The notes under the pieces were generated by a model. The model was given only the letters and a program-made list of their open reading frames with translations, was not told the origin of the DNA and did not search any database. A stretch of 34,980 bases of DNA. It comes from a virus. Shown here piece after piece: positions 2,292-29,446 of the stretch (position 1 is the first letter of the stretch; every line of letters starts with the position of its first letter). The translations under genes were made by a program, and so were the position numbers. The stretch is from the IMG/VR virus record IMGVR_UViG_3300020156_000465, positions 1 to 34,980 of that record, one strand, 5' to 3'.

Positions 2292-4270
2292 CCATGCTCA
2301 AGGAGTGGATGTCGGCTGCCGAGATTGCCGCGCTGAAGCTGCGGGACATGCCGGAATCCGAAAGCGGTGTTTGGCGTATCGCCAAGCGCGACGGCTGGCA
2401 GCATCCCGAGCGCCAATGGAATGCTGTCACCAATCCCCTCGGTGTCTGGCGCAAGCGTGACAAGAAGCAGGGCGGCGGTGTCGAGTACTATTACTCGCTG
2501 CTGCCGGCCCGCGCGCAGTCCCAGCTGCTGGTCGTTTCCGCCGTGCCGCCGGAAGCCCAGCCCGCCACCGACGCCAAGCGCAGCCTGTCGGCCTCCGACA
2601 TGTGGGCGTGGTTCGACCGCCAGACCGACAAGGTGAAGGCCAAGGCGAAGGAACGGCTGGCCATCCTGTCGCTGGTCGAGGCGATGCTGCTGAACGGCCA
2701 GCGCAAGGAGATCGCCGTCGCGCTGATCGCGGCCGAGAAGGGCGTCGCCGGGTCGAGCATCTGGGGCTGGTACAAGCGCGTCGCCGGCCAGGACCGCGAC
2801 GACTGGTTGCCCTTTCTGGCCGACCAGTACGTGGGCCGCCAAGTGTCCGCCGAGTTCGACGACGACGCCTGGGAAGCCTTCAAGGCCGACTACCTGCGCC
2901 TGTCCGCCCGCCCCTTGAGCGCCTGCTATCGCGACCTCAAGCTGCTGGCCCAGCAGAAGGGCTGGGCCATCCCCTCGGAAAAGAGCGTCGCCCGCCGGGT
3001 GGAGCGGGACATCCATCCCACCGTGCAGGTGCTGACGCGCGAAGGGCCGGATGCGTTGAAGCGCATGTACCCGCCGCAGGAACGCGACCGCACCTGCTTC
3101 CACGCCTTGGAGGCCATCAACGGCGACGGCCACATCTGGGACGTCCGCGTGCTGTGGCCCGACGGCACCATCGGCCGGCCGGTGATGGTCGGGTTCCAGG
3201 ACCTGTACTCCAACAAGCTCCTGGCGTGGCGGGTGGCCCAGACCGAGAACCGCGAGGTGATCCGCCTGGCGCTGGGCGACGTCGTCGAACAGTACGGCAT
3301 CCCCGACTATGTGTGGTTCGACAACACCAGGGCGTTCGCCAACAAATGGCTGACCGGCGGTGCCGCCAACCGGCACCGCTGGAAGGTGCGCGACGAGGAC
3401 CCGCTGGGCATCTGCGAAACCCTGAACATGCAGGTGCGCTTCACGCTGCCCTATTCGGGGCAAAGCAAGCCCATCGAGCGCAGCTGGCGCGACATGGCCC
3501 AGGACATCGCCAAGGTCGCCGCCTTCGAGGGCGCCTACACCGGCAACAGCACCACCAACAAGCCGGCCAATTACGGCGAACGCGCCATTCCCCTGGACGA
3601 GTTCCTGCAGGTGATCGCGGTGGAGATCACCAAGTGGAACGCCCGCGAGGGCCGCCGCACCAAGATCGCCCAGGGCCGCTCGTTCGACCAGGTGTTCAAC
3701 GAGAGCTACGCCAAGGCGTCCAGCCAGGGCCTGATCCGCCGCGCCACCGCCGAGCAGGCCCGCCTGTGGCTGCTGACCGCCGACGGCGTCTCGGCCGACC
3801 GCGACAACGGCGCCATCAAGATCCTCGGCAACCGCTTCTGGTCCGAGTTCCTGGTGGAGCATCGCGGCGAGAAGCTGGTGGTGCGCTACGACCCCCAGAA
3901 CGTCTTGGACGGCCTGCACGTCTACGCCCTGTCGGGCGCCTATCTCGGCTTCGCCGACATCTGGGAGCCGGTGGGCTTCAAGAACGCCGACGCGGCACGC
4001 CAGCACGCCCAGGCGCGCAAGGCTTGGCTGAAGGCGGTTGCCGCCCAGGCCAAGGCCGAGCGCACCATGACCGCGGTCGAACTGGCCCAGATGGCGCCGG
4101 AAGTCGAGCCGGAACCCCCGGCCGACCTCGGCAACGTCCACCGTGCCGTTTTCGGCAACACCGCCCTCAAGCCCCGTCCCGCCGTCCAGCCGGCGGTCCA
4201 GTCCGCCCCCGACGCCGAGGCGTTCGGGCGCGGGGTGCAGCAGCTGTTCCGTCTCGTCACCGACAACTGA
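2288..4270 (+). CDS. A: Mu-type transposase MuA
   Basis: 660 residues, about the length of MuA. The N-terminal Mu-type HTH is visible (EWMSAAEIAALKLRDMPESESGVWRIAKRDGW, about 6-37), followed by an end-binding region and the RNase H-fold core. The DDE triad reads D280 (INGDGH), D345 (VWFDNTRAF) and E397 (SKPIERSWRD), with spacing close to MuA D269/D336/E392. A beta-barrel region follows (about 520-620), then a charged Pro-rich tail (VEPEPPADLG) where MuA contacts MuB and ClpX. The start ATG overlaps the upstream stop by ATGA; a second ATG lies two codons in. It acts with MuB in replicative transposition. The catalytic residues are intact, so the element could be active. Confidence 0.98.
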   Translation: MTMLKEWMSAAEIAALKLRDMPESESGVWRIAKRDGWQHPERQWNAVTNPLGVWRKRDKKQGGGVEYYYSLLPARAQSQLLVVSAVPPEAQPATDAKRSLSASDMWAWFDRQTDKVKAKAKERLAILSLVEAMLLNGQRKEIAVALIAAEKGVAGSSIWGWYKRVAGQDRDDWLPFLADQYVGRQVSAEFDDDAWEAFKADYLRLSARPLSACYRDLKLLAQQKGWAIPSEKSVARRVERDIHPTVQVLTREGPDALKRMYPPQERDRTCFHALEAINGDGHIWDVRVLWPDGTIGRPVMVGFQDLYSNKLLAWRVAQTENREVIRLALGDVVEQYGIPDYVWFDNTRAFANKWLTGGAANRHRWKVRDEDPLGICETLNMQVRFTLPYSGQSKPIERSWRDMAQDIAKVAAFEGAYTGNSTTNKPANYGERAIPLDEFLQVIAVEITKWNAREGRRTKIAQGRSFDQVFNESYAKASSQGLIRRATAEQARLWLLTADGVSADRDNGAIKILGNRFWSEFLVEHRGEKLVVRYDPQNVLDGLHVYALSGAYLGFADIWEPVGFKNADAARQHAQARKAWLKAVAAQAKAERTMTAVELAQMAPEVEPEPPADLGNVHRAVFGNTALKPRPAVQPAVQSAPDAEAFGRGVQQLFRLVTDN

Positions 4271-10439: not shown

Positions 10440-10796
10440 ATGACGACGTTGCCCGGCATCCTTGGTGATCTGGCCCGGCGCGGCTTCGGCGGCGAGGCGC
10501 TGAAGCTGGCCGCCGCCTGGGGCGGGACCAAGCGTTACATTCCCGCCCGCCCCACGGCCGACAGCGAGATCTGCAAGGTGATCAGCCTGGAGGCCGCCCT
10601 GGTGCTCGCCGAGGTTTACGGCAACCGCCACCACGACATCCCGTTGGCGGCGGGTTTGGGCAGCAAGAAGGCGGCGCTGCGCCGGGTCGAGGCGGCTGGC
10701 AACACCGACGCCGCCCGCGCCGTCGGCTGCTCGGCCCGCTACGTCCGCATGGTCCGCAACGGCAGCAAAGACCCCAGCCAGGGCGAGCTGCTGTAG
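10440..10796 (+). CDS. mor: Mor/C-family transcription activator
   Basis: 118 residues. The N-terminal dimerisation half (ILGDLARRGFGGEALKLAAAWGGTKRYIPARP, 7-38) and the C-terminal HTH (about 86-107, AAGNTDAARAVGCSARYVRMVRN) match the Mor transcription activator family, which includes Mu Mor and C. These dimers bind a dyad just upstream of -35-less promoters and recruit sigma70 polymerase. This is the only such gene in the window. It lies 61 bp before one copy of the GCGGAA-N3-TTCCGC dyad, and a second copy precedes the protease gene, so it may directly control late operons. Whether it is the Mor or the C equivalent cannot be told. Confidence 0.9.
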   Translation: MTTLPGILGDLARRGFGGEALKLAAAWGGTKRYIPARPTADSEICKVISLEAALVLAEVYGNRHHDIPLAAGLGSKKAALRRVEAAGNTDAARAVGCSARYVRMVRNGSKDPSQGELL

Positions 10797-10856: not shown

Positions 10857-10902
10857 AGCGGAACACTTCCGCGCGGCCCATCCCAGGTGGGCACCCTACG
10901 CT
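10857..10902 (+). promoter_or_regulatory. putative activator-dependent late promoter of the lysis/packaging operon
   Basis: Dyad GCGGAA (10858-10863), CAC, TTCCGC (10867-10872), followed by GCGG, and a -10-like TACGCT at 10897-10902. The first 19 bp match those at 17974-17992 in 18 positions; in both copies the TAC hexamer is 39 nt after the dyad start and the ATG is 74 nt after it. If TACGCT is the -10, the dyad centre falls near -44, about where Mu Mor and C bind. No -35 is visible, as expected for this class. The binding protein is presumably the adjacent Mor-like activator. Confidence 0.62.
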
Positions 10903-10903
10903 G

Positions 10904-10930
10904 ACCCCCGGATTACGTCCGGGGGTTTTT
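10904..10930 (+). terminator. rho-independent terminator at end of early/middle operon
   Basis: Stem ACCCCCGGA (10904-10912) and TCCGGGGGT (10918-10926) with loop TTACG, followed by TTTT. It ends one base before the ATG of the lysis gene. The 3' arm contains the GGGGG that is the only candidate ribosome-binding stretch for that gene. The predicted late start near 10909 falls inside the 5' arm, so late RNA would not form the full hairpin. Confidence 0.8.
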
Positions 10931-10931
10931 C

Positions 10932-11669
10932 ATGGAAGATTTCGTTGTCGTTGCCGCGATCTTAAAAGTCGCCTATGCGCTGGCCGCCGCCGTCGGGTTG
11001 ATCGGTCTGTCCGCCTGGCTCGACCAGCGCGCCAAAAGAACGTTCGGCGACAGCATGAACCAGATGGCCCGCGAGCCTTTGGCCCTTGCTGTCTACTACG
11101 GTCTGCGGTTTGTCGCGCTCGGCCTGTTGGTCGGCCTGCTCGTCGGCTGCACCGCCGCCCAGGCGGGTACGGCCTTTCCCAGCAAGTACGACGGCGAGAT
11201 CCGCCGCGCCGTCGATACCTATTGGCCCGACTATCCCCGGCCGGCGTCGTGGAAGGCCCAGCTGTACCAGGAATCGCGCCTCGATCCCCGCGCCGTGTCG
11301 CCGGTCGGCGCCGCCGGCCTGGCGCAGTTCATGCCCGGCACCTGGGAGCAGGTGACGCGCGAGCTGCGCCTCGGCGCCGTCTCGCCCCATCACGATGTCG
11401 CCATCCAGGCCGGCGCCTACTACATGGCCAAGCAGCGCCAGGTCTGGCGCGCGGGCCGCGACCCCCACGACCGCCAGCCCCTGGCCCAGGCCAGCTACAA
11501 CGCCGGGGCGGGCAACATCATCAAGGCCCAGCGGGCCTGCGGCGGCGCCCGGCTGTGGGCCGGGATTGCCCCCTGCCTGGTTGACGTCACCGGCACCAAC
11601 AGCCGCGAAACCCTGACCTACGTCGACCGCGTCGCCCGCTACACCGTCATGATGGAGGCCGGGCTGTGA
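10932..11669 (+). CDS. holin-like membrane segment fused to lytic transglycosylase (endolysin)
   Basis: 245 residues. Two hydrophobic segments (about 5-30 and 50-72) separated by a basic loop (DQRAKRTFGDS) look like a small holin or membrane anchor. The second ends in LLVGC (C73), a possible lipobox. An SLT-type transglycosylase follows: the catalytic Glu is probably E114 in QLYQESRLDPRAVSPVGAAGLAQFMPGTW, with the later conserved blocks AYYMAKQRQVW and ASYNAGAGNI. Such enzymes cleave peptidoglycan glycan strands. In related phages the membrane part and the SLT enzyme are, I believe, often separate genes; here they are one frame. The start lies 74 nt after the dyad, exactly as for the protease gene, supporting ATG 10932. 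Confidence 0.85.
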   Translation: MEDFVVVAAILKVAYALAAAVGLIGLSAWLDQRAKRTFGDSMNQMAREPLALAVYYGLRFVALGLLVGLLVGCTAAQAGTAFPSKYDGEIRRAVDTYWPDYPRPASWKAQLYQESRLDPRAVSPVGAAGLAQFMPGTWEQVTRELRLGAVSPHHDVAIQAGAYYMAKQRQVWRAGRDPHDRQPLAQASYNAGAGNIIKAQRACGGARLWAGIAPCLVDVTGTNSRETLTYVDRVARYTVMMEAGL

Positions 11670-12238
11670 TCGCGCGGCTTGCCGCCCTGATCGGCGTGCC
11701 GGTGTCCGCCCTGGCCTGGGTCGGGTTCATCCTGGCGGTGGTCGGCTCTGCCGCCGTCTCGGGCGCCCTGGTCCACTCCTACGACCGCGCCCAGCACGAC
11801 AAGGTGGTCGCCGATCTGCGCCGTGACGCCGCCGAGGCCCTGGCCGAGGAGACCGGCAAGGTGCTGGCTCTGCTGCAGGCCGAGATCGACCGCAATGCCG
11901 AATTGGAGGCCAAGTATGCCCGTCTCGCCCAGGATACCGCCCGCGCCCAGGCTGATGGCGCCCGCCTGTCTGCTGACCTTGACGCTGCTCGCCAGCGCCT
12001 GCTCCAGTTCACCCGAGCCGGTGGGCGCGGTGGTGGTGGCGCCAAACGCCAAGCCGGCGCCGATGCCAGCGGCTGTGAGACTGTACGTGCCGCCCTCGCC
12101 CGGACCCTTGCAGCGCTGGAACGCCTCGAAAGAGGAGGCGATGAAGCTGCTGAACTCGGACAGCACGCCGTAGACGTGGCCACCATCGCCGCCCAGGCTG
12201 CCCAGGCCGCCCGCACCAAGGACGACGGCCGTGAGTGA
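11666..12238 (+). CDS. Rz-like inner-membrane spanin
   Basis: 190 residues from GTG 11666, overlapping the upstream stop (GTGA). One N-terminal membrane segment (about 13-37, SALAWVGFILAVVGSAAVSG) is followed by a long charged helix or coiled coil (about 45-115, with LRRDAAEALAEETGKVLALLQAEIDRNAELEAKYARL), the usual i-spanin architecture. It would span the periplasm and join the outer-membrane spanin encoded inside it in the +1 frame at 11916-12173. The C-terminal part is alanine-rich with no further motif. Position after the endolysin supports the assignment. Confidence 0.85.
   Translation: MIARLAALIGVPVSALAWVGFILAVVGSAAVSGALVHSYDRAQHDKVVADLRRDAAEALAEETGKVLALLQAEIDRNAELEAKYARLAQDTARAQADGARLSADLDAARQRLLQFTRAGGRGGGGAKRQAGADASGCETVRAALARTLAALERLERGGDEAAELGQHAVDVATIAAQAAQAARTKDDGRE
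11916..12173 (+). CDS. Rz1-like outer-membrane spanin lipoprotein, nested in Rz
   Basis: 85 residues, wholly inside the Rz gene in another frame. ATG 11916 has GGAGG (11905-11909) six bases upstream, an excellent site. The product begins with a basic n-region (MPVSPRIPPAPRLMAP), then a hydrophobic stretch CLLTLTLLASAC with a lipobox-like ASAC (C29), then SSSPEP and a proline-rich segment (PNAKPAPMP, YVPPSPGP). A lipid-anchored, proline-rich short protein nested in Rz is the classic o-spanin. The -3 position is Ala rather than Leu, a slightly relaxed lipobox. Confidence 0.85.
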   Translation: MPVSPRIPPAPRLMAPACLLTLTLLASACSSSPEPVGAVVVAPNAKPAPMPAAVRLYVPPSPGPLQRWNASKEEAMKLLNSDSTP

Positions 12239-12443
12239 TTTCGGCGACGAGGCTCTCTCGATCCAGGAACGGGATCTGGCCGACATCATGGCCGCCCGCC
12301 GTGTCGCCAACTCGGCGCCGACACCGGCCTCGGACATCTGCGCCAAGTGCGGTGGAACCATCGAGCCCGAGCGGCGCGAGGTGCTGCCCAAGACCAACGT
12401 CTGCGGCGATTGCGCGGCCGAACTCAACAGGGGAAGGCGATGA
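12231..12443 (+). CDS. TraR/DksA-type C4 zinc-finger protein
   Basis: 70 residues from GTG 12231, overlapping the Rz stop. Cysteines C37, C40, C58 and C61 (ICAKCGGTIEPERREVLPKTNVCGDCAAE) form the C4 zinc finger of the TraR/DksA family. An acidic N-terminal helix (FGDEALSIQERDLADIMAARR) resembles the short coiled-coil tip by which TraR-like proteins enter the RNA polymerase secondary channel. Mu and its relatives carry a similar small protein at this place. A role in tuning host transcription is likely. Confidence 0.87.
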   Translation: MSDFGDEALSIQERDLADIMAARRVANSAPTPASDICAKCGGTIEPERREVLPKTNVCGDCAAELNRGRR

Positions 12444-12760
12444 CCGTGCAGGTCGAATTCTGGCAGCTGCTGACCACTCTCGTTGGCCTGCTGATCACCT
12501 TCCTGGGCTTCGCCTTTGCGGCCGGCCGGCTGCTGCTGTCCCAGATCGACCGTCGACTGGACCTTCGGTTCTCGGCGGTGGAAAGCGCGGCCAAGGATCT
12601 CCAGCAACTGGAGAAGGACTTCCTGACGTGGCGAGCGGAGCTGCCGCTGCAGTACGTCCGCCGCGAGGACTACGTCCGCAACCAGACGGTTCTGGAAGCC
12701 AAGCTCGACGCCTTGGCGGTGCGGATCGACAACATGAAACTGCGCGAGGTCATGTCGTGA
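12440..12760 (+). CDS. Mu gp25-like membrane protein (DUF2730 type)
   Basis: 106 residues. One N-terminal transmembrane helix (about 7-33, FWQLLTTLVGLLITFLGFAFAAGRLLL) is followed by a charged coiled-coil region (LRFSAVESAAKDLQQLEKDFLTWRAELPLQYVRREDYVRNQTVLEAKLDAL). This layout and the location between the zinc-finger gene and the terminase genes fit the DUF2730/gp25 family of Mu-like phages. The function is not established. The start overlaps the previous stop by ATGA, and the stop overlaps the next start by TGATG. Confidence 0.75.
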   Translation: MTVQVEFWQLLTTLVGLLITFLGFAFAAGRLLLSQIDRRLDLRFSAVESAAKDLQQLEKDFLTWRAELPLQYVRREDYVRNQTVLEAKLDALAVRIDNMKLREVMS

Positions 12761-13071
12761 TGGAGCAAATCGACACCGCCAAGGTCCGCCGCGAAAGCCT
12801 GCGCTGGCTGATCCTGCTGGCGCTTTACAACGCCCGCCCCGCCGAGCTGGTGGAGAACGTGGTGCTGGTGACCGCCCAGGCCATCTATCCCGACGCCACG
12901 CCCCTGGAGATCCGCCGCGAGCTGGACTACCTGTCCGACCGCAAGCTGGTCGAGATCCGCAAGGACCCTGCCGGCCCGTGGTGGGGCAACCTGACCCGCT
13001 ATGGCACCGACATCGCCGAGTACACCGTCGACTGTGCCCCCGGCATCGCCCGGCCGGCCAAGTACTGGTGA
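12760..13071 (+). CDS. Mu gp26-like winged-helix protein (putative)
   Basis: 103 residues from ATG 12760 (GTG 12757 is an alternative one codon earlier). The pattern RWLILLALYNARPAELVENVVLVTAQAIYPDATPLEIRRELDYLSDRKLVEIRKDP (15-70) is a winged-helix fold: three helices, then a wing, then LTRYGTDIAEYTVDCAPGIARP, whose end recurs in homologues just upstream of the small terminase gene in Mu-like phages. It may help in packaging or regulation. Confidence 0.75.
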   Translation: MEQIDTAKVRRESLRWLILLALYNARPAELVENVVLVTAQAIYPDATPLEIRRELDYLSDRKLVEIRKDPAGPWWGNLTRYGTDIAEYTVDCAPGIARPAKYW

Positions 13072-13074
13072 CCC

Positions 13075-13638
13075 ATGGCCCGGCGTAGCGCCATCGACGG
13101 CCTGCCCGAAGAGGTGCGGCGCTGGCTGGACCGCGCCCTCTCGTCCAAGGGCTTCGCCCAGTACCAGCTGCTGGAACAGCATCTGCGCGACAAGGGCTTC
13201 AGCGTATCGAAGTCGGCCATCCACCGCTACGGCCAGAAGCTGGAGCGGCGCCTGGCCGCCATCAAGGCCAGCACCGAAGCGGCCAAGTTGCTGGCCGACG
13301 CCTCTCCCGATGATCAGGACGCGCGGTCGGAGGCCCTGACCGCCATGATCCAGACCGAGCTGTTCGAGACGCTGGTCAACCTGCAGGAGGCCACCGACGA
13401 TGACGTCGATGCGGCCGAGCGGGTCAAGATGCTGTCGGGTGCTGCCAAGAACATCGCCACGCTGACCAGGTCGAGCGTCAACCTCAAGCGGTTCCAGGCG
13501 GAGGTGCGCGAAGAGATGGCCAAGAAGGCCGCCGCGCTCGTGGACCGTGCCGCCAAGGACGCCGCGAAGGCCGGTGAAAAGGGGCTGTCGGCCGAGCGCA
13601 TTGCCCAACTGAAGCGCGAGTTGGCGGGGATGGCGTAG
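13075..13638 (+). CDS. small terminase subunit (DUF3486, Mu gp27-like)
   Basis: 187 residues. The DUF3486 pattern is clear: RRSAIDGLPEEVRRWLDRALSSKGFAQYQLLEQHLRDKGFSVSKSAIHRYGQKLERRL (3-60) contains the DNA-binding HTH, followed by a helical oligomerisation region and an Ala/Lys/Glu-rich C-terminal helix (VREEMAKKAAALVDRAAKDAAKAGEKGLSAERIAQLKRELAG). The protein recognises the phage end for packaging and acts with the large terminase gene three bases downstream. Confidence 0.9.
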   Translation: MARRSAIDGLPEEVRRWLDRALSSKGFAQYQLLEQHLRDKGFSVSKSAIHRYGQKLERRLAAIKASTEAAKLLADASPDDQDARSEALTAMIQTELFETLVNLQEATDDDVDAAERVKMLSGAAKNIATLTRSSVNLKRFQAEVREEMAKKAAALVDRAAKDAAKAGEKGLSAERIAQLKRELAGMA

Positions 13639-13641
13639 GCC

Positions 13642-15291
13642 ATGTCTGCCCTCAACTACGTCCCGCCCAGGTCCATTATCGACGAGATCTGGGACACCGA
13701 AGCACTCACCACCTTCGACCCGCTGGCCGATGGCCTACTCATGTCGCATCAGCGCGCATGGGTCGCTGATGAGAGCGAGCTGAAGATCGCCGAGAAAGGC
13801 CGCCGCACCGGCATCACCTGGGCCGAGGCGTATTCGTCGGTAATGACCGCTTCGGCCGCCAGGTCGGCTGGCGGCGACGATGTGTGGTACATCGGCGACA
13901 CCAAAGACAAGGGCCGCGAGTTCATCAACACCTGCCGGGGGTTCGCCGAGAAGATCGCCGGCGAGCTGGTGGAGGTCGAGGAGTTCCTGTTCGACGACGT
14001 CGAGGTCGACGCGGCCGGCAACGTCACCACCAAGCAGATCAGCGCCTGGCGTATCACCTTCGCATCGGGCTTCCGCATCTCGGCGCTGTCGTCCAACCCG
14101 GCCAATATTCGCGGCCTGCAGGGCGTCGTCATCATCGACGAGGCCGGCTTCCACAAGGACGTGGCCAAGGTGCTGGACGCCTGTCTGGCGCTGCTGATCT
14201 GGGGCGGCAAGATCCGCATCATCAGCACCCACAACGGCAAAGCGAACCCGTTCAATACCCTGATCAAGGAGGTGCGCGAGGGAACCCGCATCGGCCGCGT
14301 CCACACCATCCCCTTCGACCAGGCGGTGGCCGACGGCCTCTACGAGCGCGTCTGCGCCGTGCGCGGCTGGAAGATGAGCCCGGAGGGCAAGGCAGCCTGG
14401 TACAACAAAGTTCGCAAGTCCTATGGCTCGCGCACCGATGCCATGCGCGAGGAGCTGGATGCCATTCCCCGCGAGGGCGAAGGCACCATGATCCCGCTGG
14501 CGCTGATCGAGGCCGCGCAAACCGACAAGTACCCGCTGGTCCGTTGGACCAAGCCCGATGCCAGGGCCGGCAAGGACTTCGTCGACTGGACTGAGTTCGA
14601 CCGCCGCGAGCACATGCGGCAGTGGCTGGCCGAGTACGTCACTCCGCTGCTGGAAGCCCTGCCCGCGAACGCCGATTGCGCCGTTGGTGAGGACTTCGCC
14701 ATGCGGCAGGACCGTACCGACATCGCCGTCGGCTTCACCGACGAGCGCTTGGTGCGGCACGCCGCGTTTCTGGTTGAATTGCGTGAGTGCCCCTACGACC
14801 AGCAGAAACAGGCGCTGTTCCACATCTGCGACTTCCTGCGCGGCAAGCGCCGCTTCAGTCGTGGCGTGCTTGACGCCAACGGCAATGGCATGGTGCTGGC
14901 CCAGGAAGCCCGCCAGCGCTATGGCGAGGACCGCATCCTGGAGCTGATGCCCCAGGACAAGTGGTTGCTGCGAGAGATCACCCCGCTGTTCGCAGCTGCT
15001 TTCGTCGACCGTACCATCCTGATCCCGCTGCACAAGGACGTGCGCGACGACGTCCACCAGTTCCGCTTGGTCAACGGCGTCGGCAAGATCCCCACCGACG
15101 TCCGCACCGAGGGCACCGATGGCGGCCGGCGCCATGCGGATGCGGCGGTGGCCATCCTCAACTTCTACGCCGCCACCTTCGGCGCGGTGGTCGAATACGG
15201 CTACGAAGCGGCGCATCCGCACACCACCGATAACCCCCATACCGCCCCCGACGACGATGACGACGTCGGCTTCGGCGCTGGAGCCTATTGA
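13642..15291 (+). CDS. large terminase subunit (Mu gp28-like)
   Basis: 549 residues. The ATPase half has a Walker A-like K52-GRRTGIT-59 after the Q-motif-like LMSHQRAW, and Walker B GVVIIDEAG (161-169, D166/E167). A coupling motif IRIISTHNGKANPF follows near 191-204. The nuclease half shows AVGEDFAMRQDRTDIAVGF, SRGVLDANGNGMVLAQEA and GGRRHADAAVAIL, supplying the acidic residues of an RNase H-like nuclease. It cuts and translocates phage DNA into procapsids headful-wise, as in Mu. The acidic tail (DDDDDVG) is not conserved as far as I can judge. Confidence 0.95.
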   Translation: MSALNYVPPRSIIDEIWDTEALTTFDPLADGLLMSHQRAWVADESELKIAEKGRRTGITWAEAYSSVMTASAARSAGGDDVWYIGDTKDKGREFINTCRGFAEKIAGELVEVEEFLFDDVEVDAAGNVTTKQISAWRITFASGFRISALSSNPANIRGLQGVVIIDEAGFHKDVAKVLDACLALLIWGGKIRIISTHNGKANPFNTLIKEVREGTRIGRVHTIPFDQAVADGLYERVCAVRGWKMSPEGKAAWYNKVRKSYGSRTDAMREELDAIPREGEGTMIPLALIEAAQTDKYPLVRWTKPDARAGKDFVDWTEFDRREHMRQWLAEYVTPLLEALPANADCAVGEDFAMRQDRTDIAVGFTDERLVRHAAFLVELRECPYDQQKQALFHICDFLRGKRRFSRGVLDANGNGMVLAQEARQRYGEDRILELMPQDKWLLREITPLFAAAFVDRTILIPLHKDVRDDVHQFRLVNGVGKIPTDVRTEGTDGGRRHADAAVAILNFYAATFGAVVEYGYEAAHPHTTDNPHTAPDDDDDVGFGAGAY

Positions 15292-15293
15292 CC

Positions 15294-16859
15294 ATGGCCC
15301 AATTGCTTGACCAGTACGGCAATCCCATCGACACCTCGCGACTGACCGAGGAGGAGGCTGGGCCGACGGTGGCCGGCGTGCGCCAGGTCATCAGCGATCA
15401 CCCGTGGCAGGGCATGACGCCCAGGCGCTTGGGCCAGGTCATGCTGGCTGCCGAGGAAGGTGACGCCGACGCCTACTTGGAGGTGGCCGAGGAGATCGAG
15501 GAGAAGGATCTGCACTATCGCGCGGTCATGGGCACCCGCAAGCTGCAGGTCAGTCAGCTGCCGGTGACCGTCGAAGCCGCCAGCGACGAGCCGGCCGACC
15601 AGGAGGACGCCGATTTCGTGCGCGAACACCTGGTCGATACCGGCGTGGTGTCCGACTACCTGTTCGACCAGCTGGATGCCCTCGGCAAGGGTTACAGCGT
15701 TGGCGAGATCATCTGGAAGCGTGACCTGCTGTGGCTGCCCACCCGTATCGAGTGGCGCGACCCGCGCTGGTTTGAGTTTGCCCGCGACGGCCGCACCTTG
15801 CTGCTGAAAGGCGGTGTCACCGGCATCGGTGCGGCCGAGCCGCTCAAGCCCTATGGGTACGTTGTCCACTATCACAAGACCAAGTCCGGCCTGCCCATCC
15901 GGGGCGGCCTGGCCCGGCCGGCGGCCTGGCTGATCCTGTTCAAGGTGTTCGACGTCAAGTCCTGGGTCGAATTCCTTGAAGGCTTCGGCCAGCCGGTGCG
16001 CCTGGGCAAATACAAGCCCGGCGCCAGCAAGGAGGACAAGGCGGCGCTGCTGCGCGCGGTGCGGTCCATGTGGAAGGACTCGGCCGCTATCATCCCCGAC
16101 AGCATGCTGGTGGAGTGGCTGGAGGCCAAGGTCACCGGCAACACCACCTTGCAGCAGGATTTCGCCGACTGGGTCGACCGCCAGGTGTCCAAGCTGGTGC
16201 TGGGCCAGACCGGCACCACCGACGTGGGTCAGCACGTCGGCACGGCCAAGGCGCACGACAAGGTCAAGGATGACATCGAGCGAGACGACGGCAAGCAGTC
16301 GGCCAACAGCATCAACGACTGCCTGGTCCGCCCGACCATCGACCTCAATCGCGGCCCGCGCAAACGCTATCCCCGCGTGAAGATCGAGCGGCCCGACGCC
16401 GTCGACCTCAAGCTCTACATGGAGACGGTGGAGAAGTTCGTGAACCTGGGTGGCCGGGTCGAGGCTTCGGTGGTCGGCGACAAGATCGGCCTGCCCGATG
16501 CCCCCGAAGCCGGCAAAGACGGCAAGCAGGTCTACCTGCTGCGTCCCGCCGGCACCGCTCAGCCTAAGTTGGCCGGCGATGCCGGTACCGGCAGCGATCT
16601 GGTCGACCTTTCGACGGCCAACCAGCGGCCCGACGCCGGGAGCGATCCCATCGACGACATCGAGCAGACCGGCCTCGATGGCTGGGAAGAGCAGATGGCT
16701 CCAATGATCGACCCGGTGCGGGCGCTGATCGATGGCGCGTCCAGCTACGAGGAGGCCATCGCCGGTCTCAAGGGACTGAAGATGGACAACACGCGCCTGG
16801 TCGAGGCCCTGACCAAGGCCATGTTCCTGTCGCGCGCCGCCGGCGACCAGGTGGACTGA
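15294..16859 (+). CDS. portal protein (DUF935, Mu gp29-like)
   Basis: 521 residues from ATG 15294; a TTG at 15288 is upstream in frame but overlaps the previous stop and has no advantage. The family pattern is clear: LLDQYGNPI at the start, AAEEGDADAYLEVAEEIEEKDLHYRAVMGTRKLQVSQLPVTV, then LGKGYSVGEIIWKR, PYGYVVHYHKTKSGLPIRGGLARPAAWLILFK and KSWVEFLEGFGQPVRLGKY. The portal dodecamer forms the DNA channel at the head vertex. The stop overlaps the next start (TGATG). Confidence 0.95.
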   Translation: MAQLLDQYGNPIDTSRLTEEEAGPTVAGVRQVISDHPWQGMTPRRLGQVMLAAEEGDADAYLEVAEEIEEKDLHYRAVMGTRKLQVSQLPVTVEAASDEPADQEDADFVREHLVDTGVVSDYLFDQLDALGKGYSVGEIIWKRDLLWLPTRIEWRDPRWFEFARDGRTLLLKGGVTGIGAAEPLKPYGYVVHYHKTKSGLPIRGGLARPAAWLILFKVFDVKSWVEFLEGFGQPVRLGKYKPGASKEDKAALLRAVRSMWKDSAAIIPDSMLVEWLEAKVTGNTTLQQDFADWVDRQVSKLVLGQTGTTDVGQHVGTAKAHDKVKDDIERDDGKQSANSINDCLVRPTIDLNRGPRKRYPRVKIERPDAVDLKLYMETVEKFVNLGGRVEASVVGDKIGLPDAPEAGKDGKQVYLLRPAGTAQPKLAGDAGTGSDLVDLSTANQRPDAGSDPIDDIEQTGLDGWEEQMAPMIDPVRALIDGASSYEEAIAGLKGLKMDNTRLVEALTKAMFLSRAAGDQVD

Positions 16860-17728
16860 TGGCTGACCGTCCCCAGCGCGAGTTCACGCCCAAGCCGGGG
16901 TTCCGCTTCGGTGATCCCGCCGATGGCTCACCCCGCATCGGCCCGTCGCCGGAAGTGCTGGCCTACCTCAAGAACAAGGGCTGGAAGCCGGCCTTCAGCT
17001 ACAAGGACGTCTGGGGCGAAGAGCACGCCTTCGCCTTCACCGTCGCCAAGGCGATGGAGCTGGACGTGCTCACCACCATCCGCGAGGCCCTTGAGAAGGC
17101 CCTGGAAGAGGGCATCCCGTTCGAGCAGTTCAAGAAGGATCTGGAACCGAAGCTGCGCGAGCTGGGCTGGTGGGGCCGCAAGAACATGGTCGACCCGCTG
17201 ACCGGGGAAACCGTCTCGGCGCGCCTCGGCAGCCCCCGGCGCCTCAAGACCATCTATTGGGCCAACACCCGCTCGGCCCGCGCCGCTGGACAGTGGGAAC
17301 GGGCGCAGCGCACCAAGGACGCCCTGCCGTACTTCATCTATGAGCTGGGGCCGTCCGAGCGGCACCGGCCCGAGCATGCCAGCAAGTCCGGCCTGATCCT
17401 GCCCATCGACGATCCGTTCTGGGATCACTGGATGCCCCAGAACGCCTGGGGCTGCAAATGCAAGGTCCGCCAGATCGGCGAGGCCGAGGCGGGCCGGAAG
17501 GGCGGCGTCGGCACGGCGCCGCTGGTGCCCACCCGCACCTGGCGCAACAGCCGCACCGGCGAGGTGCTGCAGGTGCCCGAAGGAATCGATCCCGCCTGGG
17601 ACACCAACCCGGGCAAGCATCGCCAGCAGAACCTGGACCGCATGCTCGCCGGCAAGCTCAAGGAGATGCCCGCCGACCTGTCCGAGGTGGCGATCCGCGA
17701 CATGAAGGCGTCGGGACGGCACTCTTGA
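16859..17728 (+). CDS. head morphogenesis protein (Mu gp30/F, SPP1 gp7-like)
   Basis: 289 residues. The SPP1 gp7/Mu F-type signature is present: KPAFSYKDVWGEEHAFAFTVAKAMELDVL, then RRLKTIYWANTRSARAAGQWERAQR, RHRPEHASKSGLILPIDDPFWDHWMPQNAWGCKCKVRQI with the conserved W-G-C-x-C. It is a minor capsid protein needed for head assembly. The Mu order continues portal-F here, but the gpG-type protein that follows F in Mu is moved to 21549. A 319-bp gene-free stretch follows. Confidence 0.92.
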   Translation: MADRPQREFTPKPGFRFGDPADGSPRIGPSPEVLAYLKNKGWKPAFSYKDVWGEEHAFAFTVAKAMELDVLTTIREALEKALEEGIPFEQFKKDLEPKLRELGWWGRKNMVDPLTGETVSARLGSPRRLKTIYWANTRSARAAGQWERAQRTKDALPYFIYELGPSERHRPEHASKSGLILPIDDPFWDHWMPQNAWGCKCKVRQIGEAEAGRKGGVGTAPLVPTRTWRNSRTGEVLQVPEGIDPAWDTNPGKHRQQNLDRMLAGKLKEMPADLSEVAIRDMKASGRHS

Positions 17729-17825
17729 GCCCTCGCAACGCTGACCGAAATGGAAAGCCCGTAGGGCGGCCGAGGACGCCAGGAAGGCTCTCAGCCGCCA
17801 CCATGTTAGCGGCCATGACGTTCTC

Positions 17826-17855
17826 ACCGCTCTCAGGCGCTCTCAATCGCTCTTA
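17826..17855 (+). repeat. three tandem 10-bp repeats with CGCTCTCA core
   Basis: CGCTCTCA at 17828-17835 and 17838-17845 and CGCTCTTA at 17848-17855 are spaced exactly 10 bp, so each unit would face the same side of the helix. A related GGCTCTCA lies near 17788. This could be a protein-binding array upstream of the late promoter, or decay of an old coding sequence. Confidence 0.5.
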
Positions 17856-17937
17856 AACGGCTAATGAAGCCTCACCATTGGGAGCTATTCCATTGCGCCG
17901 GTAGAATGCCTCTTGCGAGGTAGCCAAGCCGAAGGCA

Positions 17938-17951
17938 GGATGCCGGCATCC
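17938..17951. repeat. 14-bp perfect palindrome
   Basis: GGATGCCGGCATCC is its own reverse complement. It ends 22 bp before the late-promoter dyad and lies in a gene-free region. A dimeric regulator site is possible; a chance palindrome of this size in a 35-kb window is also conceivable. Confidence 0.45.
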
Positions 17952-17972
17952 CCCACATAGCCAAGACCATAG

Positions 17973-18018
17973 AGCGGAAGACTTCCGCGCGGTCCCATTT
18001 GCGCCATCGCCATACCTT
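17973..18018 (+). promoter_or_regulatory. putative activator-dependent late promoter of the head/tail operon
   Basis: Dyad GCGGAA (17974-17979), GAC, TTCCGC (17983-17988), then GCGG and a -10-like TACCTT at 18013-18018. It matches the site before the lysis operon in 18 of the first 19 positions, with identical distances to the -10 (39 nt from dyad start) and to the start codon (74 nt). The predicted RNA start near 18025 leaves a leader of about 23 nt. Mu has a C-activated promoter at the same place. Confidence 0.62.
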
Positions 18019-18047: not shown

Positions 18048-19214
18048 ATGACGAAGGTCATCCATGATGTGACGGACGAACAGGGTACCGCGCTGGCCAC
18101 CGCCAGCGCGGTCGTCCTCCCTGAGGGCCAGGTGCCCGAGTGGGTCAAGCTGTTCGGCTATGGCACCGTCCTGGGCCGCGACGGTCGCGGTCCCTATACC
18201 GTGCGCGACCAGGCCCACGCCCAGCAGATCGTCGCCACCACCCTGACCTACCAGGCCGGCGCCGACGCCCCCGTCGATTACGACCACCAGACCCAGCGTT
18301 CCGAGAAGAACGGCCAGCCCGCCCCGGCCGCCGGCTGGTTCAAGGGCTTCGATGTTCGCCCCGACGGCCTGTACGCCCGCACGGACTGGACCGCCAAGGC
18401 TGCCCAGCACCTGGTGGACAAGGAGTTTCGCTACATCTCCCCGACCTTCACCCACACGAAGGACGGCACGGTGATCAGGATCGTCGGCGCGGGGCTGACG
18501 AACCTGCCCAACCTGGAAATCCCCGCCATTGCCTCTCAGACCATCACTGGAGATCCCATGGACCCCGAAGAGCTGCTCAAGCAGATCCGGGCGGCGCTGG
18601 GTATGGCGGCGGATGCGTCCGTCGAAGCCATCGCCACCCACTGCCAGAAGCTGACCGCCGGCGCCGGCACCGTTGCCAAGCTGCTGGGCCTGCCCGCCGC
18701 CACCCCGCCCGACCAGCTGGCCACCGCTGCCCAGGCCGCCGTGACCGCCCTGGCCAGCACCCTCAAGGTGACCGGCGACGCCACCATCCCGGCGCTGACC
18801 ACCGCCGCCCAGCAGCTGAACACCCAGCTGACCACGGCCAACCAGGTGGACCTGACCAAGTACGTTCCCATGGACGTGCACCTGGCGGTCGCCGGCCAGC
18901 TGACCGAGCTGCAGAAGTCCACCGCCACCAACGAGGTCGCCGCCGCCGTCGACCAGGCCATCAAGGACGGCAAGCTGATGCCGGCCATGAAGGAGTGGGG
19001 TCTGGCGCTGGCCAACCAGAACATGACCGCCTTCAAGGACTACGTCGCCAAGGCCCCGGTTCTGCTGTCCACCGCCAGCCAGACCCCTCACACCCCGGCG
19101 CCGCCGGCGGCCACCGCAACCCAGCGGATGGATGCGGACGTCCTGTCGATCTGCAACCAGCTGGGCACCGACGCCACCAAGGTCGCCGAGGGCCTGAAGA
19201 AGGAGGGCCTCTGA
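18048..19214 (+). CDS. phage protease/scaffold precursor (Mu gene I-like)
   Basis: 388 residues. The N-terminal 165 residues form the Mu I-type protease: EWVKLFGYGTVLGRDGRGPYTVRD (31-54), PVDYDHQTQRSEKNGQPAPAAGW (76-98, with a conserved Asp-His) and DKEFRYISPTFTHTKDGTVIRIVGAGLTNLPNL. The C-terminal 220 residues are Ala/Thr/Gln-rich helix typical of scaffold. The start lies 74 nt after the promoter dyad, as for the lysis gene. The protease matures the head after assembly. An internal start at 18558 probably gives the scaffold alone. Confidence 0.93.
   Translation: MTKVIHDVTDEQGTALATASAVVLPEGQVPEWVKLFGYGTVLGRDGRGPYTVRDQAHAQQIVATTLTYQAGADAPVDYDHQTQRSEKNGQPAPAAGWFKGFDVRPDGLYARTDWTAKAAQHLVDKEFRYISPTFTHTKDGTVIRIVGAGLTNLPNLEIPAIASQTITGDPMDPEELLKQIRAALGMAADASVEAIATHCQKLTAGAGTVAKLLGLPAATPPDQLATAAQAAVTALASTLKVTGDATIPALTTAAQQLNTQLTTANQVDLTKYVPMDVHLAVAGQLTELQKSTATNEVAAAVDQAIKDGKLMPAMKEWGLALANQNMTAFKDYVAKAPVLLSTASQTPHTPAPPAATATQRMDADVLSICNQLGTDATKVAEGLKKEGL
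18558..19214 (+). CDS. scaffold protein from internal start (Mu Z-like)
   Basis: 218 residues, in frame within the protease gene from codon 171. ATG 18558 follows GGAGA (18549-18553) and begins MDPEELLKQIRAALGMAAD just where the protease domain ends. Mu makes scaffold Z in the same way from inside gene I. The predicted product is nearly all helix, with repeats of Ala, Thr and Gln and a C-terminal QRMDADVLSICNQLGTDATKVAEGLKKEG that probably binds the capsid protein. Inferred from ribosome-binding site, position and analogy. Confidence 0.7.
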   Translation: MDPEELLKQIRAALGMAADASVEAIATHCQKLTAGAGTVAKLLGLPAATPPDQLATAAQAAVTALASTLKVTGDATIPALTTAAQQLNTQLTTANQVDLTKYVPMDVHLAVAGQLTELQKSTATNEVAAAVDQAIKDGKLMPAMKEWGLALANQNMTAFKDYVAKAPVLLSTASQTPHTPAPPAATATQRMDADVLSICNQLGTDATKVAEGLKKEGL

Positions 19215-23361: not shown

Positions 23362-23700
23362 ATGCACGGCATGGATGCGGCCACGGGCAGGCGGCTGGGC
23401 GGCGTGAGCCACCTTCGCCAGTCGATCACCAAGATCCTGACCACGCGGATCGGCACGCGCAATCGTCGCCGCGCCTTCGGTTCGCGCCTGCCCGAACGCA
23501 TCGACAATCCCGCCGGCCCGGCGCTGGCCATCGACATCATCGCCGATACCGCCGCCGCCATCGACCAGTGGGAGCCCCGCTACCGGCTGGAGCGCGTCAT
23601 CGTCGACCAGTCCACCCAGGGCCGCTGCGTGCTGGACCTGGACGGCATCTACCTGCCCGAGGGCCGCCGCGTCACCCTGGATGGGATCGTCGTCGAATGA
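23362..23700 (+). CDS. W: baseplate protein gpW (P2-like, gp25 fold)
   Basis: 112 residues. GMDAATGRRLGGVSHLRQSITKILTTRIGTRNRRRAFGSRLPERIDNP (3-50) matches P2 W/T4 gp25-type baseplate proteins, including the R-x-x-x-F-G-S-x-L-P core. It forms part of the wedge that starts sheath assembly. The stop overlaps the gpJ start (ATGA). Confidence 0.92.
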   Translation: MHGMDAATGRRLGGVSHLRQSITKILTTRIGTRNRRRAFGSRLPERIDNPAGPALAIDIIADTAAAIDQWEPRYRLERVIVDQSTQGRCVLDLDGIYLPEGRRVTLDGIVVE

Positions 23701-24623
23701 GCCGCTTCGACGACATCGACTTCGCCAGCCTGCCGGCGCCCGACGTGGTCGAGACCCTCGATTACGAGGTGATCCTGGCCACCCTGCTGGCGCGCTACGA
23801 GGAAAAGGCCAGGGCCAAGGGGCTGGACGTGTCGGCCAGCACCATGCTGGAGAGCGACCCGGCGAAGATCCTGCTCGAAGTCGGCGCCGAGATGGTGGTG
23901 CAGGAGCGCCAGAAGCGTAACGACGCCGCCCTGGCCGTTCTGCTGGCCAAAGCCAAGGGCAAGGACCTCGACAACGTGGTCTCCCACTTCAAGGTCAAGC
24001 GCCAGGTCATCGACCCCGGCGACCCGACCGCCGTGCCGCCGGTGGCCCCGACCTATGAGGACGACGATTCACTGCGCCGCCGCGCCCATCTGGCCTATGA
24101 GGCTCTGAGCGTCGCCGGCCCGCGTGGCGCCTACATCTTCCACGCCCTTTCTGCCCACGCCAAAGTCAAGGACGCCTGGGCCGAAATGACCTCGCCCGGC
24201 CACATCCTGGTGACCGTGCTGAGCCATGAGGGCGACGGCACCCCCAGCGAGGAGGTGCTGCAGGCCGTCCGCGACAAGATCGCCCCGGCCGACCAGTCGC
24301 AGGAACTGCGCCCCGACAGCGACGATGTGACCGTCATCGGCGCCACCGTGGTGCATTACCGTATCGAGGCCGAGCTGGAGATGGAGAGCTTGCCCGATGC
24401 CGAGGCGGCGCTGGCGGCCGCGCGCACCGCGACTGCGACCTATGCCGGCAAACAGCATAAGCTGATGAAGCCGGTGGCCCATTCCGGCCTGGACGGCGCC
24501 ATGCATGTGGCCGCCGTGCGCGAGGTCCACATCATCGAGCCGCCCGCCACTCTGCCGGCCCAGTCCCGCACCGCGTACTACTGCGACGGCATCGACATCC
24601 GCGTGCAGGGGGCGTCGGCATGA
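23697..24623 (+). CDS. J: baseplate protein gpJ (P2-like)
   Basis: 308 residues. Matches baseplate J family: FASLPAPDVVETLDYEVILATLLARYEEKA, ESDPAKILLEVGAEMVVQERQKRNDAALAVLLAKAKGKDLDNVVSHFKVKR, DDSLRRRAHLAYEALSVAGPRGAYIFHALSAHAKVKDAWAEMTSPGHILVTVLSHEGDGTPSEEVLQAVRDKI. It is the main wedge protein connecting spike, fibre and sheath. Coupled at both ends by ATGA. Confidence 0.95.
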   Translation: MSRFDDIDFASLPAPDVVETLDYEVILATLLARYEEKARAKGLDVSASTMLESDPAKILLEVGAEMVVQERQKRNDAALAVLLAKAKGKDLDNVVSHFKVKRQVIDPGDPTAVPPVAPTYEDDDSLRRRAHLAYEALSVAGPRGAYIFHALSAHAKVKDAWAEMTSPGHILVTVLSHEGDGTPSEEVLQAVRDKIAPADQSQELRPDSDDVTVIGATVVHYRIEAELEMESLPDAEAALAAARTATATYAGKQHKLMKPVAHSGLDGAMHVAAVREVHIIEPPATLPAQSRTAYYCDGIDIRVQGASA

Positions 24624-25249
24624 CCCTGCAGCCCACCAACGCCACCCCCTTCGAGATCGCGCTGGAGCATGCGCTGGCGCTGATCACCGAGATCCCCAAT
24701 CCCATCGACACGTTGTGGGACCCCTGGAAGTGCCCGGCGCAGTTCCTGCCCTGGTTGGCCTGGCAATACAGCGTCGATCACTGGCGCTCGGATTGGCCGG
24801 AAACGGTCAAGCGCCAGGTCATCGCCTCGGCCTACGAGGTGCACCGCATCAAGGGCACGTTGCCGGCGATCAAGGCCGGGATCGCCGGCCTCGGCATCGA
24901 GGCCGACATCGTCCGCTGGTTCGAAACCGAGCCCAAGGGCGCGCCCTACACCATGACGGTGACCGCCTGGGCCAAGCCCGCCAGCGAGACGAACATCGTG
25001 CTGGATGCTGCCGGCCAGCAGGATCTGATCGAGATGGTAGGCGCCACCAAGGCCCTGCGCACCGATGCCGCCATCCGCATCGGATCGGTGCAGGCCGGCG
25101 CCTTGGGGCTCGCCGCCGTCGCCGCGCCTCACCAGACCGTGACAGCAGACACGCCGGCCGCCATGCGTGATGGCGCCGGCGCCTGCCTGGGGCTGGCCGC
25201 CGGCTCGCATGTCGCCCCCCGTTTCCGCGCCACCATGAAAGCCGCTTAG
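24620..25249 (+). CDS. I: tail protein gpI (P2-like)
   Basis: 209 residues. The P2 I pattern is clear: NATPFEIALEHALALITEIPNPIDTLWDPWKCPAQFLPWLAWQYSVDHWRSDWPETVKRQVIASAYEVHRIKGTLPAIKAGIAGLG (6-91), then WFETEPKGAPYTMTVTAW. It joins the fibre to the baseplate. The C-terminus carries an Ala-rich extension of about 60 residues with AALGLAAVAAPHQT that resembles a fragment of the repeats seen in tail-fibre bases. Confidence 0.93.
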   Translation: MTLQPTNATPFEIALEHALALITEIPNPIDTLWDPWKCPAQFLPWLAWQYSVDHWRSDWPETVKRQVIASAYEVHRIKGTLPAIKAGIAGLGIEADIVRWFETEPKGAPYTMTVTAWAKPASETNIVLDAAGQQDLIEMVGATKALRTDAAIRIGSVQAGALGLAAVAAPHQTVTADTPAAMRDGAGACLGLAAGSHVAPRFRATMKAA

Positions 25250-25252
25250 ACC

Positions 25253-26341
25253 ATGAGCGATCTGACGCTGACCATCAAACTCACCGATGCCGGCATGGCG
25301 GCTGTGGCCGCCGCCCATGGCCAGGGCATCCAGGCCAAGATCACCGCCGTGGCGGTGGGCGATCAGGGTTACGTCCCCACCGCCGACGCCACGGCCCTGC
25401 GCAACGAGCTGGCCCGCGTCGAGTTGACAGCCGGCGGGGCGGTGGCGCCCCAGCAGGTGCTGCTGCAAGGCATGATCCCGCCCGGAGAGACCGAGTTTTT
25501 CATCAGGGAGTTGGGGTACTATCTGGAGGACGGAACCCTGCTGGGCGTGTGGTCGGACCCCGCCACGCCCTTGGGCTGGATCGGCGGCGCCACGCCGTGG
25601 TTCTTCAAGCTGGCCTTTGCGTGGACAGCTTTGCCCGATGACGCCATCACCGTGCTGATCGCCGACGATGGCGGGCAAGCGGGTATGGCGCTCGACCTGG
25701 CGCAGCTGGACGGCAAGGTCCGCCACACCGTCGAGACCGGCGGCCTGGTGTGGGCGGCCACCGACAACACGCTGCTGACGGCGGCCATCCAAGCGATCGC
25801 CGCAATCAGCGGCTTCACCACCGGCGACGTCAAGTTGACGCTGAAGCCCTTTGCCGATGCCGGATGGGTCCTGGCGAACGACGGCACTATTGGCTCCGCC
25901 GCGTCCGGCGCGACGACGCGCGCCAACGCCGACACCCAGGCGCTCTATACGCTCCTCTGGAATCATGTCGCCGAGGCTTGGGCGCCGGTAACGGGTGGGC
26001 GCGGCGCGTCCGCCGCCGCGGACTTTGCGGCAAACAAGCCTCTGAAGCTGACGCGCATGCTCGGGCGTGCCCTGGCCATTGCCGGCGGCGGCGCGGGCCT
26101 CAGCGTCCGCGCCCTTGGCCAATTCGTGGGTGCCGAGACGCACACGCTGACCACCAATGAGCTGGCGTCGCACCAGCACAACACTTGGCCCGGCAACACG
26201 CCAAGCGGCGGCGGCGGCCAAGTGGCGGAGGGCGCGGGAGCGCCCTTCGACGCGCCGGCCCCGACGGAGGCCACGGGCGGCGGCGGCGCGCACAACAACA
26301 TGCAGCCGACCGTCTTCCTGAACGCCATGATCAAGCTGTGA
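25253..26341 (+). CDS. H: tail fibre protein gpH (P2-like) with collar-type tip
   Basis: 362 residues. The N-terminus (LTIKLTDAGMAAVAAAHGQGIQAKITAVAVGDQGYVPTADATALRNELAR...GETEFFIRELGYYLEDGTLLGVWSDP) is the P2 H/DUF3751-type domain that attaches to the baseplate. The C-terminal 80 residues (MLGRALAIAGGGAGLSVRALGQFVGAETHTLTTNELASHQHN, GGGGAHNNMQPTVFLNAMIKL) are a phage tail-collar tip in which His-rich turns (HQH) usually bind metal and the receptor. This short fibre likely sets host range. It would need an assembly chaperone, for which the next gene is a candidate. Confidence 0.9.
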   Translation: MSDLTLTIKLTDAGMAAVAAAHGQGIQAKITAVAVGDQGYVPTADATALRNELARVELTAGGAVAPQQVLLQGMIPPGETEFFIRELGYYLEDGTLLGVWSDPATPLGWIGGATPWFFKLAFAWTALPDDAITVLIADDGGQAGMALDLAQLDGKVRHTVETGGLVWAATDNTLLTAAIQAIAAISGFTTGDVKLTLKPFADAGWVLANDGTIGSAASGATTRANADTQALYTLLWNHVAEAWAPVTGGRGASAAADFAANKPLKLTRMLGRALAIAGGGAGLSVRALGQFVGAETHTLTTNELASHQHNTWPGNTPSGGGGQVAEGAGAPFDAPAPTEATGGGGAHNNMQPTVFLNAMIKL

Positions 26342-26351
26342 GGCCGATCCC

Positions 26352-27026
26352 ATGCAGTTCCACCACCACCCCGACAACCTGATCTACCTGCGCGGCGCCC
26401 GGACCTACATGGCGCAGGTGGCCGAGTTCGCGGCCGACCTCGTGGCCTGCGGCCTGCCGGCCTACGCCGGCCTGCCCGAGGGCGCGACCGAGCGCCGCTA
26501 CGACGGCGGCCGGCATCTGGTCGGCTACGGCGAGCGCGGCTTCGAGGACGCCGAGCCCTGGCCCGAGGGCGACGCCTACCTGGCCGCGCTCGACGCGCTG
26601 CTCGCCGCGCGCGCCGCGCGCCTGAACCCGGAGCCGCCGCTGGAAAGCGTCAAGGCGGCGGCGGAACGGTCGATCGACACGCGGGCGGGCGAGGCGCGGG
26701 CGGCGTTCGTCAGCGTGGGCGCCTATCTCGACGAGGAATACCAGCGCGTCGCCGCGCAAGCGGACGCGTGCCTATCCGGTGCCCCTGGACCGTTTGCGAC
26801 GCTCGAGGCGGACGTCGAGGCGGGGACGTTCGACCCGCGCCTCGGCCGCGCCGTCGAGACCGAAGCCGAGGCGGCGGATCTGGTGCGGGTCACCCGTGCC
26901 GCCTGGCTCACCAAGCTGGACGAGATTCGCCGCGTCCGTCTCACGGCAAAGGCGGACATCCGGGCCGCGCAGAGCGCCGAGGAGGTCGCCACCATCCTCG
27001 CCGGCCTGGAGTGGCCGCAGCCGTGA
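26352..27026 (+). CDS. putative tail-fibre assembly or accessory protein
   Basis: 224 residues. The start MQFHHHPDNLIYLRGARTYMAQVAEFAADL and the middle segment EPWPEGDAYLAALDALLAARAARL are not recognised with certainty. The position after the fibre gene is where P2-type phages keep G, the fibre chaperone. The remaining C-terminal half is Ala/Glu/Arg-rich helix (TEAEAADLVRVTRAAWLTKLDEIRRVRLTAKADIRAAQSAEEV). The codon choice is even more GC-rich than neighbours, hinting at exchange of the fibre module. Function inferred from position. Confidence 0.6.
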   Translation: MQFHHHPDNLIYLRGARTYMAQVAEFAADLVACGLPAYAGLPEGATERRYDGGRHLVGYGERGFEDAEPWPEGDAYLAALDALLAARAARLNPEPPLESVKAAAERSIDTRAGEARAAFVSVGAYLDEEYQRVAAQADACLSGAPGPFATLEADVEAGTFDPRLGRAVETEAEAADLVRVTRAAWLTKLDEIRRVRLTAKADIRAAQSAEEVATILAGLEWPQP

Positions 27027-27078
27027 TCATCCTCGCCGGCACCGCCGGCACCGTCTTCACAGAAAAGGGTTGTGCACC

Positions 27079-28503: not shown

Positions 28504-28515
28504 CAGGAGCGCCCT

Positions 28516-29019: not shown

Positions 29020-29030
29020 GGAGAACAGCC

Positions 29031-29351: not shown

Positions 29352-29446
29352 GCCTGGGCGACGTGCTGGCGATGGATCTGCGGGAACTGAAGGAATGGAA
29401 AGAGGCGGCCGAGGAGGTGGCCGCCGAAATCAGGGACGTTCGTTGA
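29031..29446 (+). CDS. E': tail assembly chaperone gpE+E' (-1 frameshift product)
   Basis: 138 residues when ribosomes slip -1 on A-AAT-TTT (29261-29267). After residue 79 reading continues from 29267 to TGA 29444-29446, 59 codons without a stop. The new C-terminus (LEAGGDWRRRSSLDLRKQCLRVAAHGLSLGDVLAMDLRELKEWKEAAEEVAAEI) looks like the usual P2 E' domain, with the conserved LSLGDVLAMDLREL pattern. This strongly supports a real fusion. Frameshifting is known in P2 E/E' and lambda G/GT. Confidence 0.88.
29261..29297 (+). promoter_or_regulatory. -1 ribosomal frameshift signal
   Basis: Slippery heptamer A-AAT-TTT at 29261-29267, in the zero frame of gene E, fits X-XXY-YYZ. An 8-nt spacer is followed by a 7-bp stem GCCGGCG/CGCCGGC (29276-29282/29291-29297) with an 8-nt loop. 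The heptamer, spacer and stem are all in the usual range for programmed -1 frameshifting. Confidence 0.85.

Follow-up and report, generated by a model that had tools for sequence, protein, structure and literature searches.

Two copies of a palindromic dyad in a Mu-like transposable phage are very probably the operators of a Mor/C-family activator, whose gene lies just ahead of the first copy and through which the lysis and head operons would be switched on together. The window (the whole stretch of DNA analysed, 34,980 nt from an IMG/VR virus record) carries one dyad ahead of each operon, and one activator probably drives both of these late operons, which would shorten the Mu cascade to one step. 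In the mechanism we propose, the activator would bind as a dimer to each dyad, with its centre near −44, and replace a missing −35 element, after which host RNA polymerase would start transcription from a NANNNT −10 element 32 bp downstream, turning on the lysis/packaging operon (Plys-like promoter) and the head operon (PI-like promoter); the order of events would be early operon, activator, late promoters. The C-controlled late promoters of Mu are textbook knowledge. The features of the window that bear on this reading are as follows.

2039–4270: MuA-like transposase gene.
10440–10796, plus strand: Mor/C-family activator gene, 118 aa (phrog_836, E = 3.9e-13; the family profile matches Mor, 1rr7).
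10737–10739 and 10746–10748: codons of R100 and R103, the predicted specificity residues in the recognition helix of the 118-aa activator (residues 99–106), from AF2 helices and covariation with the operator.
10858–10872, plus strand: putative operator 1, GCGGAA-CAC-TTCCGC, then GCGG at 10873–10876 (exact repeat; twin-site comparison).
10897–10902, plus strand: −10 element TACGCT of the Plys-like promoter, predicted +1 at about 10909 (fixed distance from the dyad centre in relatives).
10904–10930, plus strand: predicted leader hairpin ACCCCCGGA-TTACG-TCCGGGGGT plus a T run (folding z −4.4; same layout in 7/7 clade members).
10932–11669, plus strand: SLT-domain lysozyme gene, first of the lysis/packaging operon (PF01464, phrog_669).
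11666–17728, plus strand: rest of operon 1, namely Rz-like spanin, gp at 12235, gp27-like TerS, TerL, portal (gp29) and F-like minor head protein.
17974–17988, plus strand: putative operator 2, GCGGAA-GAC-TTCCGC, then GCGG at 17989–17992.
18013–18018, plus strand: −10 element TACCTT of the PI-like promoter, predicted +1 at about 18025 (fixed distance from the dyad centre in relatives).
18048–19214, plus strand: Mu I-like head maturation protease gene, first of the head operon (PF10123, E = 2e-79; phrog_328).

Elsewhere in the window, an open reading frame at the left end (1–372) partially matches the MuA-type transposase family (phrog_310), besides the full-length transposase, and a DNA methyltransferase gene (34036–34980) runs off the right end. 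The early region holds uncharacterised genes, and baseplate and fibre genes (23568–32184) lie ahead of the tape measure gene, an order that differs from that of Mu. The 245-bp non-coding gap ahead of dyad 2 (17729–17973) occupies what we take to be the place of Mu's strong gyrase site, between G and I.

Across the whole window, GCGGAANNNTTCCGCGCGG occurred exactly at 10858 and 17974 only, and in none of 100 dinucleotide shuffles; both dyads lie in gaps, one before the lysozyme gene and the other before the protease gene. The figures given for this repeat in the preliminary description were all correct on recounting: the 19-mers of the two dyads differ at a single position (18/19 match; C or G in the spacer), the −10 hexamer lies 39 nt from the dyad start at both sites (TACGCT at 10897, TACCTT at 18013), and the ATG lies 74 nt from it (10932 and 18048). 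The accompanying claim that such a shared layout is unlikely by chance also held, with zero occurrences expected from the shuffles and a match between the two flanks that scored 18 against a cross-phage null mean of 9.1 (p = 0.004). A loose form of the dyad pattern (3 mismatches) gave four matches in the window compared with 1.7 expected, which is not significant alone, and 29 other perfect 6-3-6 dyads are present; the significance therefore rests on the exact repeat, its location and the comparative data. At neither site did a promoter scan call a sigma-70-like promoter, in line with the lack of a −35 hexamer, and a search of the window for a third matched operator, including counterparts of PP and Pmom, found none.

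The distance between dyad and −10 element was assessed at 54 sites from 27 non-redundant phages, chosen without using the −10 hexamer. NANNNT lay exactly 32.5 bp from the dyad centre at 36 of these sites (18 on each side), compared with 0–7 sites, mostly 0–3, for each of the other offsets between 22.5 and 45.5 bp. The corresponding distance is 32 bp in the window, where the dyad spacer is 3 nt (4 nt in most relatives). Given that a sigma-70 −10 element depends chiefly on A at −11 and T at −7, the dyad centre would fall at about −44 relative to the predicted +1. This agrees with the position earlier likened to that of Mor/C sites, as Mor acts at Pm of Mu on a 16-bp element centred at −43.5, where it stands in for the −35 element (PMC4390567). 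A scan of Mu-like relatives for dyads spaced 74 nt from a start codon had been suggested as well; twin dyads did recur, but this spacing was not kept, and the 74-nt rule was dropped, as start codons range from +1 to about +25 while the −10 element stays fixed.

Being GC-rich inverted repeats, of which the first follows right after the activator gene, the dyads could instead act as intrinsic terminators, ending the activator operon and insulating the head operon, with their likeness incidental, and a T-rich stretch does follow the dyad in L003, L004 and RR1-B. However, neither window dyad has a T run after it or is called by a terminator scan, dyad 2 is 245 nt past the preceding gene and adjoins the following one, and terminators need no shared sequence, no −10 element at a fixed distance and no covariation with a helix-turn-helix (HTH) protein. 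We regard this alternative as highly improbable.

The operator reading was assessed further in more than 200 related loci gathered from viral and genome contigs, of which 56 non-redundant loci had both a Mor/C-family gene and a protease gene. For each phage, the stretch after the activator gene was compared with the stretch before its own protease gene, with the stretches of all other phages as the null. A score of at least 15 was reached by 22 of 56 own pairs but by only 26 of 3,080 cross pairs, most of which came from phages that share an operator. The dyad itself differs from phage to phage, with types including CCGGAA-N4-TTCCGG, CCTGAA-N4-TTCAGG, CCGCAA-N4-TTGTGG, GCCCGC-N4-GCGGGC, CCGTCCGATTTCGGACGG and others. 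Twin operators were present in the isolates RR1-B, PeaS-P1, ThpS-P1 and RC1, and no convincing operator pair was found in StopSmel, Aussie or Mwe-Yong1. About half of the 56 loci were without a matched pair by this method, whose recall is limited: Mu, used as a positive control, scored 10.5, near background, and a missing match in a phage is therefore not evidence of absence. Some of the relatives without a matched pair may use another layout.

Near-identical 20-mers 7.1 kb apart might also arise from a recent duplication or a mobile repeat without a regulatory role. This explanation is scarcely credible, given that the likeness of the two copies ends after about 20 bp and that many phages have the pair at these two positions, with the two sequences changing in step.

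Two sets of relatives separate the operator from the genes around it. The regulator of L231 is 93% identical to that of the window, whereas its portal (49%) and protease (28%) are much less alike and its MCP is undetectable; GCGGAAGACTTCCGCGCGG stands ahead of both its lysozyme and protease genes. Loss of the dyad and its spacing in close relatives had been named in the preliminary description as an outcome that would speak against its reading; L231 keeps GCGGAA, and the 74-nt spacing is not conserved in relatives. Conversely, L170 and L169 resemble the window in TerL (85%), portal (79%), F (89–90%) and lysozyme (73–75%), whereas their regulator is only 30% identical or undetectable, and they carry CCTGAA dyads at both places. 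This double dissociation implies that the operator follows the regulator and not the structural genes; the genes between the two sites appear to have stayed alike while both sites and the regulator changed together.

Variations on the paired arrangement were also observed. L103 (at 20220) and L114 (at 16231) carry a third matched operator in the tail gene region, accompanied by a −10 element and a start codon at +1, like PP of Mu. Two operator copies 63 bp apart (3954 and 4017) precede the lysozyme gene of L231 and are possible tandem promoters. A single Rhizobium paknamense contig holds two related prophages (L003 and L004) with different operators (CCGGTC and CCGCAA types) and different recognition helices, as if the two were insulated from each other.

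We assessed how the sequence of the activator associates with that of its operator. Membership of the Mor/C family is indicated by phrog_836 (late transcriptional activator; E-value as listed above) and by matches to PF08765 in 33 of 43 aligned relatives; the window protein alone did not match PF08765 at 0.01. An AF2 model of the protein (mean pLDDT 86.9) has a C-terminal HTH (helices 88–95 and 99–106), and a Foldseek search of this model against the PDB gave no significant fold match. Complexes of C and Mor are represented by the entries 9l0x and 9l0y. Across 31 phages, the columns of the regulator alignment were correlated one by one with operator half-site distance, and the best columns were 104 (R100 of the window; r = 0.66) and 107 (R103; r = 0.45), both within the predicted recognition helix. 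Permutation of the maximum gave p = 0.0003 for both columns in the 31 phages, and a partial Mantel test of the helix, controlling for the remainder of the protein, gave r = 0.22 (p = 0.0004); among regulators less than 50% identical (18 phages), only column 104 stayed significant (p = 0.003), and all of these p values are approximate because the phages are related.

Residue-to-base rules were read by eye and then tested on loci left out of that reading. According to these rules, Arg104 goes with GA, and residue 107 goes with the preceding base (Arg with G, aromatic residues with T, and Asp, Glu or Asn with C). Among held-out loci, GA was found in 11 of 12 with Arg104 compared with none of four lacking it, and the residue-107 rule was right in seven of eight (p = 0.008). 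Three loci fetched later (L232, L233 and L235) have Arg at both columns and CGGA operators, and Mor of Mu has Tyr at column 107, in agreement with the T found at the corresponding position (−5.5) of both Pm half-sites, AGTAA and ATTAA. In the window, the recognition helix would accordingly choose its operator through R100, paired with GA, and R103, paired with the G that comes before it in the half-site CGGA.

Palindromic sites are common among HTH regulators, and the dyads could in principle be bound by some other protein, such as a phage repressor or a host regulator, with the activator acting elsewhere. We consider this very unlikely, as the operator follows the Mor/C gene in the swaps described above and its bases covary with the Mor/C recognition helix. 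Comparison with dozens of relatives indicates that one phage-encoded activator would work both switches, each phage's operator agreeing with the recognition helix of its activator.

A family-model search that detects both Mu proteins (Mor at 45 bits, C at 30 bits) found one gene each in the window, in the members of its clade and in seven isolates, and confirmed that the sole Mor-family gene of the window lies directly upstream of copy one, as previously described. No two Mor/C genes were found in one locus among the collected loci; an extra match on the minus strand of L167 (13.7 bits) was at noise level. The two-step cascade of Mu is characterised by two paralogous activators, and the window has one such gene. 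On the Mu map, the endolysin gene comes right after C, and gene I comes after G. C activates Plys, PI, PP and Pmom (PMC4461284), and the two sites of the window are therefore the counterparts of Plys and PI. The C dyads are related to the Pm dyad (PMC4287176). The suggestion that a single activator serves middle and late genes was therefore borne out as to the one Mor/C-family gene but not as to the middle genes, as both sites correspond to late promoters and no extra site was found. Both promoters in the window are late-type, and a middle promoter was sought there and not found.

A two-step cascade as in Mu, which has Mor and then C, would require a diverged second activator or a middle promoter, with the window protein as the C-like second step. 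The uncharacterised early genes leave room for such an activator, divergent paralogues could be missed, and the left end of the window may be incomplete. Still, we think this alternative rather unlikely, because the family model, which recognises Mor as well as C of Mu, gives one gene here, in complete relatives and in isolates, and because the window showed no dyad with a −10 element ahead of the activator gene. With no second Mor/C paralogue in the phage, the simplest and most likely reading is a cascade that passes from early to late in one step, in which the activator, occupying the genomic place of C, would also take its role.

Two further findings concern the leaders of the late mRNAs. 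Of 27 non-redundant phages, 20 have an in-frame protease start codon at 44.5–46.5 bp from the dyad centre, i.e., at or next to the predicted +1, suggesting that their head mRNA is probably leaderless. This type includes L003 (9941), L004 (9944), L103, L107, L108, L120, L140, L151, L231 (11146) and others; the exceptions, with short protease leaders, are the window, L005, L008 and L089. Upstream of the lysozyme gene, the lysis leader folds more stably than its shuffles (mean z −2.0 in 27 phages, compared with +0.2 for the sequence upstream). The left arm of the window hairpin straddles the predicted +1, and its right arm covers a G-rich stretch before the lysozyme start. All seven of seven members of the window clade have an inverted repeat whose left arm falls in the −10/+1 region; the right arm, including the purine-rich ribosome site, lies 3–7 nt before the lysozyme ATG. 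The hairpin stands in the lysozyme leaders of the window, L172, L170, L169, L174, L167 and L168. We see an even chance that the ribosome site is hidden in read-through early RNA and free in late RNA. A comparison of ribosome-site accessibility between read-through and late RNA proved trivially biased and was rejected, so that the hairpin claim rests on the shuffles and the conserved placement.

On balance, we favour the view, drawn from genome comparison, that in single-activator Mu-like phages the recognition-helix code of Mor/C proteins is readable, two (sometimes three) operators change with the helix, and the head mRNA is usually leaderless. Neither this code nor the co-evolution of distant promoters was found described in the literature searched, which was poor in subscription papers on Mu promoters. 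Each relative couples its regulator to its own pair of operators, and together they form a natural library and hence a directly testable residue-to-base code. Our results further suggest that control of late genes in a single step is common within this Mu-like branch, and that late promoters of uncharacterised Mu-like phages could be predicted from the regulator sequence alone.

Among known systems, the hairpin before the lysozyme gene recalls the leader of T4 gene e (also a lysozyme), in which a hairpin reportedly hides the ribosome site only in read-through RNA, the late start removing its left arm. The logic is similar, but the phage and promoter are unrelated, and the evidence here is folding and conservation. 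A single Mor/C gene ending the early region also occurs in RR1-B, RC1, vB_ThpS-P1, vB_PeaS-P1 and the B3-like Fc02 (PMC9936078); the literature found on single-Mor transposable phages reports neither twin operators nor start sites nor a specificity code. Both vB_ThpS-P1 and vB_PeaS-P1 have been said to be without Mor (PMC5488378), whereas the family model finds a Mor/C gene in each (L227, 10962–11372, 87 bits; L224, 2844–3944, 71 bits). With Mor and Pm of Mu, the window shares the centre of the dyad element and the family shares the pairing of an aromatic residue 107 with T; however, Mor drives a middle operon, and the targets in the window are late operons. A close parallel is also that with Plys and PI of Mu. 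The window differs from these in its near-perfect palindromes, its single Mor/C gene and the lack of a detected PP or Pmom counterpart, but it shares with them an activator gene directly upstream of lys, a second promoter before the protease gene I, and at each promoter a dyad upstream of a weak −10 element, with no −35 element and a Mor/C-family activator.
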